From: Acidimicrobiales bacterium
GTDB taxonomy: Bacteria; Actinomycetota; Acidimicrobiia; Acidimicrobiales; Palsa-688
Direction: 5' to 3'
DNA length: 64,000 bases
Assembly (NCBI GenBank): GCA_036378675.1
Contig: DASUWA010000009.1
Location: 1 to 64,000 of the forward strand
The notes beneath the pieces were generated by a model. It saw nothing but the letters and a program-made list of their open reading frames with translations. It did not search any database and had not been told where the DNA came from. Both the position numbers and the translations under genes were made by a program. Positions 39,315 to 45,042 of the stretch are shown here, piece after piece; position 1 is the first letter of the stretch, and every line of letters starts with the position of its first letter.

Positions 39315-40919
39315 CTAGGAAAGCGGCACACCCGACCCCAAGCCGACACCAGGGGTGCCGATTCCGTAGATGTCGTACTCGGCATAGATCGGCATCGGAG
39401 ATTTCACGACGAGCGCTACTTCCAGCGCCGAACGTCCCTGGTTGATGTGCACCGCCACTCGCCGGCCGGGAGCAAGCGAAACGGGTGTCTGGCCGGCGAG
39501 CGCCACTTCGGATCCGCTGCTGAGCATGTCGATGGTCACTTGAACCGCCTGGTTGGTCGGGTTGTAGAGGACGACCCAACCGTCGTGGCTCGAGTCGGCG
39601 TAGCTCGCCCCGAGCAGCCAGCGCTGCGCGGGAACGCGCGCTCCGAGCATGTCGCCGAGTCCGCTCCAAGACGACGGGCTGGAGGCGGCCACGACCCTTT
39701 CCGCCACAACCGCGACTCCGTTGGTCGACTGCAATACGGCGGCGTGGGTGACACCGGCCGGTATCCGGGCCTGCTGGTCCGACTCGATCGGGATCACCTG
39801 GTCCGGCGGCACCGAGAGCTCGAAGGGCTCGGCGATTCCCTGGTCGAGCTGGACGGAAAGGCGGACGTCGGCAGTGACCGGGCCGGGGTTGTAGATGACG
39901 TACTGCTCGCCGACGCCGTTGCCGGCCTGACCGTCGGCCCAGACCCAGTTCGTGGACGGGGACGGCGCCCCGAGGGTGACGGTGACCCCAGGGATCGGGG
40001 TCGCCGGGTCGGCCAGGGGGTTCGAGGCTGCCGGCGTCCCGAGGATGGCGGCGCCAGAGGGAGGAGAGGTCACCCACTGGGTCTTCCATGCGACGACTCG
40101 GCCGGTGCGCGCGGTGACCGTAGTAGCGATCTCCTGGCGCCGGCGGAGGTGATCGCCGAGGTTGACGGCAAGCATGCCGCCGCGGGGCACGATCAGGCCC
40201 TGGTCCTCGACCGGCATCTCGATCCCCTGGTCCGTCGTGAAGGACAGGTCGACCACGCTGTCCGAGGGATACGGGTTGACGAGGGTGAGCTCGACCCCGG
40301 CATTCACGAGGGTCTGGCCGGCGGCGAAATACCAGTGCGACGAGCCAGAAGTCCCGCACGGGGTTGCGGTGACTCCTCCCGGCCCGTTGACGAACTGTTC
40401 GACGGAGGTGGCTCCCGAGTCGACATCGACGCTCGCGCCGATCCAGGGGGCGCCCCCGGGAACGTCTTCTGTGACTGCCTGCCGGGACTTCGGGCCGACG
40501 GTGACGGTCACCTGGTGGCGCTGGCCGTTGCTCGTAATCAGGTCCACGACGGCATTCGTGGCCGTGTTCCCGCTGTTGGCGATGACCACAGAAGCTGGGG
40601 CGTAACCGCCCGACGTGTCGGTTGCGCCGCCGCAGAACCACGACGAGGAGAGCGCCTTCGCCGGCGCGGCCACGGGCACCTGCTGAGCTGCTGGCACGCT
40701 GGCCGGCGAGGCGGTCGTCTGCGGGGACGCCGCCTTGTCGATCAGGGCCCCGGCGACGAGAGCGGCGACGACTGCGCCGACGATCGGCGCGCGTGCCACC
40801 CCGCCTCCGAGACGGTGTCGTCCGGTCGGGCGATCTGCGCTCTCCGGGCCGTCAGCGTTTGCCGAGGCGACCCCTTCATGGCGTGCCCCGGGCGAGTGCG
40901 GCGGCACCTGGTCAGACAT
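39315..40919 (-). CDS. DUF5719 family extracytoplasmic protein
   Basis: A 534-residue protein with a soluble N-terminus, one signal-anchor helix (APIVGAVVAALVAGALI, residues about 44-60), a low-complexity Ala/Pro linker, then a large beta-rich domain made of repeated Ig-like strands (SVVIANSGNTATNAVVDLIT; GVELTLVNPYPSDSVVDLSF; EQYVIYNPGPVTADVRLSV; GWVVLYNPTNQAVQVTIDM). This is the DUF5719 layout; in actinobacteria it is usually encoded next to a large GT2 membrane glycosyltransferase, as here (8-bp overlap with that gene). It is probably an accessory to envelope polysaccharide assembly. Confidence 0.85.
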   Translation of the reverse strand: MSDQVPPHSPGARHEGVASANADGPESADRPTGRHRLGGGVARAPIVGAVVAALVAGALIDKAASPQTTASPASVPAAQQVPVAAPAKALSSSWFCGGATDTSGGYAPASVVIANSGNTATNAVVDLITSNGQRHQVTVTVGPKSRQAVTEDVPGGAPWIGASVDVDSGATSVEQFVNGPGGVTATPCGTSGSSHWYFAAGQTLVNAGVELTLVNPYPSDSVVDLSFTTDQGIEMPVEDQGLIVPRGGMLAVNLGDHLRRRQEIATTVTARTGRVVAWKTQWVTSPPSGAAILGTPAASNPLADPATPIPGVTVTLGAPSPSTNWVWADGQAGNGVGEQYVIYNPGPVTADVRLSVQLDQGIAEPFELSVPPDQVIPIESDQQARIPAGVTHAAVLQSTNGVAVVAERVVAASSPSSWSGLGDMLGARVPAQRWLLGASYADSSHDGWVVLYNPTNQAVQVTIDMLSSGSEVALAGQTPVSLAPGRRVAVHINQGRSALEVALVVKSPMPIYAEYDIYGIGTPGVGLGSGVPLS

Positions 40920-43900
40920 CGGCCCACACCTCGTCGCCCTTCATGTCCTCGGCCCCCAGGCTCGACGATGACGGCCCCGACCGCCAGTTCCTTCTGTCGG
41001 CAGCCGGGCTCACCGGGACGAACCATTCGGGCCGGACGACCTCGGGGTCGACGTCCTCGTTGCGGCGCTTGCGGATGTCGAGCGTGACGAATCCCAGTGC
41101 GAGCAGCCATAACGCGATCTCGACCACTTGGGCGGCACGGATCCCCAACGGGGACGGCGCGTGCAGGGTCGCCCGGACCAGACGGGGCGCTCCGCCCGAC
41201 GCCGCCGTTCCCGCGCCACCGCCGCCCGCACTCCCACCGCCCGGGCTCCCACCACCACCCGGCACCTTGAAGCGCATGCCCCACCCGAAGCCCGGCCTGG
41301 GCGACAACGAGGACGACCCGACCTGGAGGTTCCAACCCCCGTCGCGGGTCGACGCCACGTACACCGTGGAGCCCGCCGCGACCCGACCGCTAGTCACGTT
41401 CCCGGGGCCGGTAAGCACGGGAACGGCACCACTTAGATCCAGCTGCTGCAGCTCGACCCTTCCGGCGGCGCCGGCACGTGCCACCGCGAGAGCCGACTCG
41501 GGCAGGGCGGCCTTGACGGGCATCCACGCCGCGTTTCGGTAGACCGTGTAGTTGGAGTCGACCTGGTCGACTACCTGCATGTCTGTCTGCAGCGACAGTC
41601 CCTGCAAAAGCGAAGCGGGAGGCGGGGTGGCAAACCCGCCGGCGCCGGCGGGCGCGGTGTGGTTGGGAACGACCACGAACAGGACCCCGGCGGGAGCGAG
41701 AAGGTGCCCGAGCTTGGTGGTCAGCCTTCCTTCCACCAGGCGGACGTCGGAGGCAAGTTGACCGGCCGCACCGCGCCGTCCGGTGACCCACAGGTCCCCG
41801 AGGTTCGGCGGGCCGTCGTAAGAGGTTCCGTAGGCAACCCCGGTCGAAAGCTGGTAGCCAGCCAACGGGAGGGCATCTGGAGAACCGACCCACAGAACCC
41901 GGTAGTCGCCATGGGCGGTGTCGGGAAGGAAGGGCAGCTCCGAGGCCGGATCAGCCGACGGGACTTGCCAGCGACCGGTTTTCGTCGCAGCCAAGAGCGG
42001 GACCGCGGCGAGGGCCACGGCGACGGCCGCGATCCCGGCGGCCAGCTGCCGCCAACCGAACCGGTAGCCGGGAAGGTCGAGCTCGAACGCCGCCGCCCCC
42101 AGCGCCGCGGAGCCTGCCAGAGCGGCCGCTGCAGGCGCCAGCACCACGTCGGGGGGCAACGCCGGCACCCACCCTCGCGACCCGGCCCACGCCGCCGCGA
42201 AACAGAGCACCGCCACCGACCACAGCCGGGCGGCCCAAGCGAGACGCCACCCTCGCCCTATGAAAAGCGGGAGCGCCGCCACGACCAAGAGCGCCCATCC
42301 CAGGACCCCGTGGCCGAACGGACCGGTCTGGAACCGGAGCACCGCGCCGAACCCGAGCCGCCCTCCCGCACCCAGGGACGGCCCCGCAGTCGACACCCTG
42401 CTGCCCAGAACCGTTCCCGACCAGGGCAGCAAAAGCACCACCGCGCCGAACGCCGTCGCCAACCCGAGCAGGAACATCCGGAGCCCCCCGCCCGGCATTC
42501 CTGCCAGGGCCGACCCGGCGAGTAATCCGAGTGCCACCAGCGGAACCACGAACAACCACGACGGGGCGACCGCCCCGACCACCGCCACCAGGACCGCTAG
42601 AGCAGCCGCCCTCGCGTAGATCCTCGAGACGGGGGTAACCGGGAACGGAACCTGCCCGGACAGCCGGCCCAACCACCCGATCACCCACGGCGCTGCCCCG
42701 AAGGCGAGCAGGGCACCCCAGTGCCCTCGGGCCAGGGCGTTGTACGGAAGGGGACAAACCGCGTACACCACGGCCGCTGCCACCTTGCCTCTTCGCGACC
42801 CCCACCATCTCGCCGCCCGGTAGGCGCCGAGCGGTCCGAGCACCAGCGGCCCCAGGACCACGACGTGCTGCAGCACGCCGACCGCGCCGAACAGCACGGT
42901 TCCGAGGAGCGCGAGGAGACCCACGGCCGGAGCGCTCGGTGTAGCCGCTCCGAGCCCGGCCGTCTGCCAGGTGGACCACCACTGGCTCCACATCGGGCCG
43001 ATCCCCGTCGACGTGTTCGGAATGTGGCCGACCGCCGGGATCTCCCGTCCGAGGAGGCTTCGAGAGCCGACCAGCAACACGATCGCCACGACCAGCAGGA
43101 TCAGCATCGCAAGCCGCCGGTCGGCCGAAACGGGCGTCGTCTCCGGGTCGGTTTCCGGCGTCGCGTAGACCGGCACCTCGGTGGGCTCCTCGTAGCCCGT
43201 CGGCTGGACCCGCTTGACCACTGGCGCGGGCGGGAGGCCCTCCCGGACCCCTTCGATCCTGGCTCTGATGAAGCCGCGCAGGCGGGCGTTTCCGCGGCTC
43301 TGCAGCTTGCGGATGGCAGCGTCGCCAACCCGACGGTGCCGTTGCAGCGCATGCCTCGCCTTCCAAAGCCTCCCAGGCTCCCGCAACCCGCCGAAGAACG
43401 ATGAAAGCGTCCGACCCGCCTCACCCGGGCGCCCCTGCACCAGGCGGGTGGCGGCTTCACCGAGGATCCATGCCACCGACAGCGGGAAGATCCACGCGAC
43501 GTCGAACCACCGGTAACAGGTGAGGAGGGTCCTCAAGCGGTTGCCTTCGGCGGCCGCCGCGGCCCGCCGGCGCCCCTGCAGGGTCCCCCATCCCGCCCGG
43601 ACGCCGCGCTTCACCGCCTGAAGGTGCATGACTCGGGCGGCCGGAACCACCGTGATCCTGCCGCCGACCACCCGTGCCCTCCAGCACAGGTCCAGGTCCT
43701 CGCCGAACTGGTCGATGGTCTCGTCGAATCCACCCAGGGCTTCGAACAGGTCGGCACGGACGAGGCTCACCCCCGCCGGAGCGACCAGCACTTCCCGGAC
43801 GCCATCGTGCTGCGCCTGATCCAACTCGCCCGGATCAACCAGGTCCTGCAACACCCCGACCTTGTCCGCGGTCGCGCCGACGGCGAGCAGGCGCTCGGGG

Positions 43901-44289
43901 TCCTCCCACTCGAGGTACTTGGGGGAGGTGATCGCCGAGTTGGACCTGAACGCCTCCTCCAAAAGGAGTCGGACCGCGTCGGGGGCGAGTATGACATCGT
44001 CGTGGCAGAAGAGGTAGTGCGACGCCCCCTCCACGAGTTGGCGCACCTGGTTCGCGGCGCGTCCGAACCCGACCCGCTTCTCGAGTCGCCAAACGAAGGC
44101 GCCCGGAAGCACGGAGTCCACCAGCGGGGTCGGGTCGACGGCGCTTGCGGAGTCGACCACGACGACCGACACGTTGGGGTAATCCTGAGCCGCCAGCGAC
44201 GAGAGCGCCTGCTCGAGCCAGGGCCCTGAATCGCATGTAACAACGACCGCCACCACGGCTGGTGCGGGCGGCTGAGAATCCGGCTGCAT
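40912..44289 (-). CDS. Large GT2 family glycosyltransferase with polytopic membrane C-terminus
   Basis: A 1125-residue protein. Residues 10-260 form a GT-A (GT2) domain: VVAVVVTCDSGPWLEQALSS, acidic CHDDVIL in place of DxD, and FGEDLDLCWRARVVGGRITV. After an amphipathic region there are about twelve membrane helices (residues about 390-760, starting LAMLILLVVAIVLLVGS), then a soluble outer domain and a last helix (EIALWLLALGFVTLDI). A Gly/Ala-rich loop (about residues 1010-1035) precedes the last helix. Related large GT2 proteins in actinobacteria accompany DUF5719 and act in cell-wall polysaccharide synthesis; sugar unknown. It heads a two-gene operon. Confidence 0.88.
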   Translation of the reverse strand: MQPDSQPPAPAVVAVVVTCDSGPWLEQALSSLAAQDYPNVSVVVVDSASAVDPTPLVDSVLPGAFVWRLEKRVGFGRAANQVRQLVEGASHYLFCHDDVILAPDAVRLLLEEAFRSNSAITSPKYLEWEDPERLLAVGATADKVGVLQDLVDPGELDQAQHDGVREVLVAPAGVSLVRADLFEALGGFDETIDQFGEDLDLCWRARVVGGRITVVPAARVMHLQAVKRGVRAGWGTLQGRRRAAAAAEGNRLRTLLTCYRWFDVAWIFPLSVAWILGEAATRLVQGRPGEAGRTLSSFFGGLREPGRLWKARHALQRHRRVGDAAIRKLQSRGNARLRGFIRARIEGVREGLPPAPVVKRVQPTGYEEPTEVPVYATPETDPETTPVSADRRLAMLILLVVAIVLLVGSRSLLGREIPAVGHIPNTSTGIGPMWSQWWSTWQTAGLGAATPSAPAVGLLALLGTVLFGAVGVLQHVVVLGPLVLGPLGAYRAARWWGSRRGKVAAAVVYAVCPLPYNALARGHWGALLAFGAAPWVIGWLGRLSGQVPFPVTPVSRIYARAAALAVLVAVVGAVAPSWLFVVPLVALGLLAGSALAGMPGGGLRMFLLGLATAFGAVVLLLPWSGTVLGSRVSTAGPSLGAGGRLGFGAVLRFQTGPFGHGVLGWALLVVAALPLFIGRGWRLAWAARLWSVAVLCFAAAWAGSRGWVPALPPDVVLAPAAAALAGSAALGAAAFELDLPGYRFGWRQLAAGIAAVAVALAAVPLLAATKTGRWQVPSADPASELPFLPDTAHGDYRVLWVGSPDALPLAGYQLSTGVAYGTSYDGPPNLGDLWVTGRRGAAGQLASDVRLVEGRLTTKLGHLLAPAGVLFVVVPNHTAPAGAGGFATPPPASLLQGLSLQTDMQVVDQVDSNYTVYRNAAWMPVKAALPESALAVARAGAAGRVELQQLDLSGAVPVLTGPGNVTSGRVAAGSTVYVASTRDGGWNLQVGSSSLSPRPGFGWGMRFKVPGGGGSPGGGSAGGGGAGTAASGGAPRLVRATLHAPSPLGIRAAQVVEIALWLLALGFVTLDIRKRRNEDVDPEVVRPEWFVPVSPAADRRNWRSGPSSSSLGAEDMKGDEVWADV

Positions 44290-44395: not shown

Positions 44396-44466
44396 TGCTT
44401 GCAGAGTGCTTGCAACTGTTATACATTCGGTACTGACAGCAAGCATTAGCAAGCCGCCAGCAAGCA
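44396..44466. promoter_or_regulatory. Phased operator cluster around the phasin-like gene promoter
   Basis: Five 6-7 bp motifs: TGCTTGC at 44396-44402 and 44407-44413, and their reverse complement GCAAGC(A) at 44439-44445, 44449-44454 and 44460-44466. Spacing within each group is 10-11 bp, one helical turn, so all sites face one side of the DNA. Between the groups lies TATACA (44420-44425), a plausible -10, with TTGCAG (44399-44404) as a weak -35. A regulator binding here would cover -35 and the early transcribed region. Confidence 0.6.
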
Positions 44467-44511
44467 TCCGCCCCCCGGCGAGAATGCCGAGGTGGCAGCC
44501 CAGGAGGACGA

Positions 44512-45042
44512 ATGCCTGACATCACCTTCCCGACCTTCCCGCAAGTCGACATCAACAAGGCCGCGACCGACGTGAACAACGCGTTGAAGGACACCGCGTA
44601 CGTTGCCGTCGGGCTCGGGGTTCTCGGCTTCCAGCGGGCGCAGGTCCGCCGGGTCGAGCTGACCAAGCAGATCGACGAGTTCGGCAAGCAGTTCGAAGCT
44701 CAGCTCGCCAACATCGGCGACCTGCCCACCACCATCAGCAAGCAGATCGAGACCTACCGCAAGCAGGCGATCAGCCAGTACGGGCAGTTCGGCGAGCAGG
44801 TCAGCGAGAACTTCTCGTCCGCCGGCAAGGTCCTCGAAGGACAGGCGGAAGCAATCCGCCTGCAACTGACCGGGCTGGTGAAGACCCTCGACGAGCGGCT
44901 CCAGCCGGTCCGTCGCCAGGTCGACGAGCAGTTCGACCGCCTCGAGGAGCGCCTGCCCGAGAGCGCCAAGTCGGTCGTCCAGACCGTCCGGGCCGCGGCT
45001 ACTACGCCGGAGCAGCTCTTCCGCACCGCCGTCGGCCTGTAA
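44512..45042 (+). CDS. Phasin / HbhA-like coiled-coil protein
   Basis: A 176-residue, almost entirely helical protein. MPDITFPTFPQVDINKAATD leads to a semi-hydrophobic helix (DTAYVAVGLGVLGFQRAQVR) and a long amphipathic coiled coil (VELTKQIDEFGKQFEAQLAN, AEAIRLQLTGLVKTLDERLQ). This resembles phasins, which coat polyhydroxyalkanoate granules, and the heparin-binding haemagglutinin of mycobacteria, which binds lipid bodies and membranes; the two are not separable here, and the strong basic Lys-rich C-terminal repeat of HbhA is missing. AGGAGG lies 5 nt before the ATG. It stands alone behind a promoter with a phased operator cluster. Confidence 0.7.
   Translation: MPDITFPTFPQVDINKAATDVNNALKDTAYVAVGLGVLGFQRAQVRRVELTKQIDEFGKQFEAQLANIGDLPTTISKQIETYRKQAISQYGQFGEQVSENFSSAGKVLEGQAEAIRLQLTGLVKTLDERLQPVRRQVDEQFDRLEERLPESAKSVVQTVRAAATTPEQLFRTAVGL

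Follow-up and report, generated by a model that had tools for sequence, protein, structure and literature searches.

A predicted pair of mirrored MLDSR-type operators at the promoter of a phasin-like gene in an Acidimicrobiales genome

The DNA analysed here, referred to as the window, is a 64-kb stretch of an Acidimicrobiales contig. A cluster of short repeats lies in it directly upstream of a gene for a putative lipid-droplet protein (Table 1). Two copies of TGCTTGC (44396-44402 and 44407-44413) are 11 bp apart, and three copies of GCAAGC (44439-44444, 44449-44454 and 44460-44465) follow each other in steps of 10 and 11 bp. The hexamer TATACA (44420-44425) is located between the two groups. 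A sequence-only reading of the locus had listed these sites and spacings, and the sequence bears them out. The same reading placed all sites on one face of the DNA. The successive spacings of 11, 31, 10 and 11 bp add up to 63 bp, which is 6.0 turns at 10.5 bp per turn; the placement thus holds arithmetically. The divergent neighbour of the phasin-like gene is a long gene for a family 2 glycosyltransferase (40912-44289, minus strand). It is also found at L080, L088 and L026, and since the adjacency is kept in several relatives the gene pair is old.

The cluster contains five GC(TT/AA)GC sites within 69 bp. Any other 75-bp stretch of the window contains at most two, and 300 first-order Markov resamples of the window gave at most three per 75 bp. 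Thus, the cluster is real and non-random. Further copies of GCAAGC at 44684, 44738 and 44759 lie outside the cluster in coding sequence, where they are produced by Lys-Gln codons. In a search of the genome for phased sites, as proposed in the sequence-only reading, GYTWGC-N5-GYTWGC-N4-GYTWGC (up to one mismatch) matched once, at the cluster, with one match for the reversed control as well. The pair TGCTTGC-N(3-5)-TGCTTGC is not special (two matches in the genome, two for its reversed control). The block GCTTGCAACTGTTATACA has a single exact match in the genome and two more with three mismatches (reversed control, one). A literature search for the literal TGCTTGC returned unrelated work only.

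Relatives of the target gene are present in 25 of the 32 genomes of the window's family and in 140 of the 248 genomes of the order. Their upstream regions show the same promoter block as the window. The 17-base motif of the family was too narrow for the order, and GCTTGCAANNGYTW was adopted after inspection of the upstream sequences; the counts in 108 loci are therefore based on a motif that was not fixed beforehand. At the order level, phasin matches were sampled as 30 loci plus 60 places further down the E-value list, which excludes a few higher matches and the weaker remainder. L017 and L025 were dropped because of their short upstream DNA (22 and 53 bp). The motif GCTTGCAANNG(C/T)T(A/T) is found exactly in 62 of the 108 phasin-like loci of family and order, and in 70 when one mismatch is allowed. 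Only 0.1% of 4400 shuffled upstream sequences match it at this threshold. The second half-site is a full GTTAGC, GCTAGC or GTTTGC in 24 of the 70 motif-bearing relatives; the window has GTTATA instead. Further downstream, a half-site is present at offset +32 in 39 and at +31 or +32 in 42 of the 70. The half-site at this place reads GCTAGC, GTTAGC or GCAAGC and can thus face either way. Neither of the observations that the earlier reading had named as speaking against an operator was made, as the sites are conserved in relatives and no equal cluster occurs elsewhere in the 64-kb window.

Table 1. Features of the promoter region and the downstream gene (positions in the window).
Feature	Position	Strand	Remarks
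Half-site 1, GCTTGC	44397-44402	+	N5 to half-site 2; XRE genes of L156 and L158 are preceded by the same N5/N4 array
Half-site 2, GCTTGC	44408-44413	+	(Near-)invariant in 70 aligned relatives
Possible -35, TTGCAA	44410-44415	+	Begins inside half-site 2
Possible extended -10, TGTTATACA	44417-44425	+	Includes TATACA
Degenerate half-site 3, GTTATA	44418-44423	+	GTTAGC in many relatives (alignment); overlaps TATACA
Weak alternative -10, TACTGA	44431-44436	+	Near the conserved -10 of other families; fits poorly in the window
Mirrored array of three half-sites, GCTTGC-N5-GCTTGC-N4-GCTTGC	44439-44465	-	Sequence, pattern search
Ribosome-binding site, AGGAGG	44502-44507	+	Sequence
Target gene, 176-residue helical phasin/HBHA-like protein	44512-45042	+	

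The promoter scan detected no sigma-70-like site and a single terminator-like site, which lies outside the cluster. Assignment of TATACA as the -10 element is uncertain because this hexamer occupies the place of a second half-site (GTTAGC altered to GTTATA) and the other families of the order have a conserved -10-like TAnnnT some 11 bp downstream of this place. In 37 of the 70 motif-bearing relatives, the best -10-like hexamer is found at offset 25. The window's family, on the other hand, has a well-conserved GTTATACA and a weak -10 further downstream, so that TATACA may still act as part of an extended -10. Judged from the aligned upstream regions, the common layout begins with a half-site that includes TTGCAA as the -35 element; a second half-site follows within the spacer, then the -10 element and finally a half-site at the start. 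DNA looping, which had been suggested as a possibility, is doubtful and unneeded, since the two arrays are separated by 15 to 25 bp.

An exact scan for GCTTGCAACTGTTATAC in the contigs of named genomes yielded 24 stretches. Matches in archaea, Campylobacter and other unrelated groups were taken as chance. The matches in Actinomycetota lie before phasin-like genes, before genes of XRE-type HTH proteins (L074, L085, L089) or beside another gene (L070, L082, L083). In the latter three loci the operator block adjoins the start of a divergent gene whose product begins with MAS(R/N/S); this gene may be another target of the regulator. In L085 a small HBHA-like gene follows the XRE gene, a gene pair that we take to point to MLDSR of Rhodococcus jostii.

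MLDSR is an XRE protein of R. jostii RHA1 that binds the box GNT(T/A)GCTNNTGCTANC, and its gene overlaps that of MLDS, the major lipid-droplet protein under its control. MLDSR is reported to repress at a high and to activate at a low protein/DNA ratio and to be sequestered by lipid droplets (all PMC5504291). The statement of the sequence-only reading that no regulator is known for the site is therefore wrong. By visual comparison, 11 of the 12 specified positions of the MLDSR box are matched by 44439-44454 (minus strand) and 9 by 44408-44423. An MLDSR box is thus present at the promoter of the candidate droplet-protein gene. The relatives share its N4 spacing and have its G(C/T)TAGC partner.

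The window's genome contains an MLDSR-like gene at G000:C41:28427-28732. Its product is 69% identical to the XRE protein of L089 (E = 2e-37), matches HTH_3 above the cut-off and keeps the HTH segment SNPYLSQIERG common to the family. A search of PDB sequences with the XRE protein returned general HTH regulators only. Regulator and target do not form one operon (contigs C41 and C9, respectively). The box is present upstream of none of the 17 XRE loci of the window's family, the window's genome included; therefore, the regulator gene in this family is not autoregulated through the box. In six of these 17 loci (L097, which is the gene on G000:C41, L091, L093, L101, L102 and L103) the XRE gene overlaps or closely trails a receiver-domain gene. 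Response_reg was the sole match of the adjoining receiver protein in the 74 residues searched.

Strong regulator genes (E ≤ 1e-30) and the box co-occur. Among the 108 loci, 65 have both, 5 the box only, 15 the regulator only and 23 neither (Fisher p = 3e-9, a statistic that ignores kinship). One genome of 97% completeness, G034, has the box and no regulator at E ≤ 1e-15. The box is missing upstream of a short variant of the phasin-like gene (L020, L021, L022, L024, L026, L027), which occurs in genomes of the family that have no strong MLDSR-like gene; operator and regulator thus seem to have been lost together. Five WS/DGAT matches are present in the window's genome. Such matches occur in 15 of 18 genomes of the family with the regulator and in 5 of 14 without it (p = 0.01).

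Among Pfam families, the 176-residue protein matches the apolipoprotein domain best, with E = 6.1e-6 but a score that falls far short of the gathering threshold. The gathering score of the Pfam phasin family PF05597 is not reached either (13.1 versus 28.8 bits, E = 0.1), and a search of PDB sequences with the protein found no relative. An apolipoprotein match is also described for HBHA, a mycobacterial lipid-inclusion protein and homolog of Rhodococcus TadA/MLDS (PMC6176652). In a profile comparison of the target with HBHA-like proteins, 19 N-terminal columns were aligned with a probability of 47%; because of this short alignment, homology to HBHA/MLDS is suggestive and not shown.

Most likely, with a probability of roughly 75%, an XRE-type repressor of the MLDSR family uses the cluster as its operator and thereby controls a lipid-droplet coat-like protein. 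The conserved sites, the box match and the MLDSR-like gene and WS/DGAT matches observed in the genome are best read as two mirrored MLDSR-type operators that would flank the promoter of a phasin-like lipid-droplet gene. From these data we infer the identity of the binding protein, repression and occupancy by dimers. XRE dimers would occupy pairs of half-sites (GCTTGC and G(C/T)TAGC) spaced by roughly one turn of the helix. The array of half-sites 1-3 (44397-44423) would cover the -35 element and spacer, and the mirrored array (44439-44465) the start region, so that bound repressor would block RNA polymerase from both sides. By analogy to Rhodococcus MLDSR, forming droplets presumably pull the regulator off the DNA, upon which the coat protein would be made. 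The sequence-only reading had already proposed that a lipid-body gene is controlled through phased sites by a regulator that binds cooperatively and senses granules, and this view is well supported by both the conservation and the match to the MLDSR box.

A different regulator might bind the cluster, in which case its likeness to the MLDSR box would be secondary. Response regulators of the OmpR/PhoP type bind direct repeats spaced 11 bp apart, which is also the arrangement of the two upstream sites, and the receiver-domain genes beside six of the 17 XRE genes would fit as well. However, both features of the MLDSR box named above (N4 spacing, G(C/T)TAGC partner) are present in the relatives, the box goes along with XRE genes throughout the phylum, and the adjoining receiver protein matched nothing but Response_reg in the residues searched. 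Binding by such a regulator is therefore improbable. It is also unlikely that function is confined to the upstream half-sites and the core promoter, as conserved promoter of a strongly expressed gene, and that the GCAAGC triplet is a local repeat without function. In the window's family no part is better conserved than the block GCTTGCAACTGTTATACA, and the complete downstream triplet occurs, among the upstream regions compared, in the window's genome only. Yet 42 of 70 relatives keep the downstream half-site, and the triplet shares its N5/N4 geometry with arrays before XRE genes. The orientation of this half-site bears on another explanation, in which the GCAAGC repeats function as part of the 5' untranslated RNA instead of as DNA sites. 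Their location between promoter and start codon would permit this, but relatives keep the place occupied in either orientation, as expected for recognition of DNA, which makes a role in RNA very improbable.

The preferred reading, an operator of an MLDSR-type repressor, describes a variant of a known system. The MLDSR-MLDS operon of R. jostii RHA1 (PMC5504291) resembles the window in the XRE family of the regulator, the half-sites and their N4 spacing, a box in the promoter region of a gene for a droplet protein (a putative role in the window) and WS/DGAT genes in the organism. The window's lineage differs by an unlinked regulator without a box, by an operator that appears doubled and mirrored, and by a target that is at most distantly similar to MLDS.

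Repression of a granule coat protein by a regulator that is titrated by the granules is known from the PhaR-phasin systems of PHA granules. The proposed logic is alike; this comparison was made through the Pfam phasin profile, which the window's target does not reach. In mycobacteria, the regulators Rv0474 and MSMEG_0918 are encoded beside HBHA genes. HBHA reportedly occurs at lipid inclusions and has an apolipoprotein-domain match like that of the window's protein, and Rv0474 reportedly acts as repressor of its own gene and responds to copper (PMC10884836, PMC6176652); the likeness to the window's system is drawn from these descriptions.

A more far-reaching and rather doubtful reading is that of a split droplet-sensing circuit. 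The regulator might have left the operon, lost its own operator and come to act in trans on a doubled, mirrored operator. With the adjoining receiver-domain gene of several genomes, droplet content and a phosphorelay signal could then meet at one promoter.

Across the phylum, relatives of the XRE protein (E ≤ 1e-15) are present in 124 of 396 genomes, and in 169 of the 248 genomes of the order. Outside the window's family the box (up to one mismatch) precedes 34 of 49 XRE loci, compared with 0.8% of shuffled sequences. The gene following the XRE gene encodes an HBHA-like motif in 24 of the 49 loci, 21 of which also have the box. These 49 are the loci with readable upstream DNA; L107 and L167 (no recognisable XRE core) were dropped and L119 was left out. 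L156 and L158 contain the published MLDSR box letter for letter. Several XRE loci show the three-half-site array of the window, for example L156 with GCTAGC-AGAGT-GCTTGC-TCTT-GCTAGC. The Rhodococcus observation may thereby be extended to a testable phylum-wide code of one operator, one regulator family and droplet-protein targets. Such a code would predict in which uncultured actinobacteria coat proteins are under droplet-sensing control, and it allows a natural comparison between lineages where the circuit is autoregulated and those where its regulator is unlinked.

In 392 genomes of the phylum GYTWGC-N5-GYTWGC-N4-GYTWGC has 11 matches in 10 genomes. The reversed pattern has 14 (hand count); since 11 does not exceed this, the number of arrays alone proves nothing. 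Five of the 11 arrays lie before XRE genes, two before HBHA-like genes, one before the window's gene and one before a coiled-coil gene. The remaining two (L267 and L268) look unrelated. L267 has four half-sites in a run before the gene for a secreted-looking protein, which is either chance or a further target.
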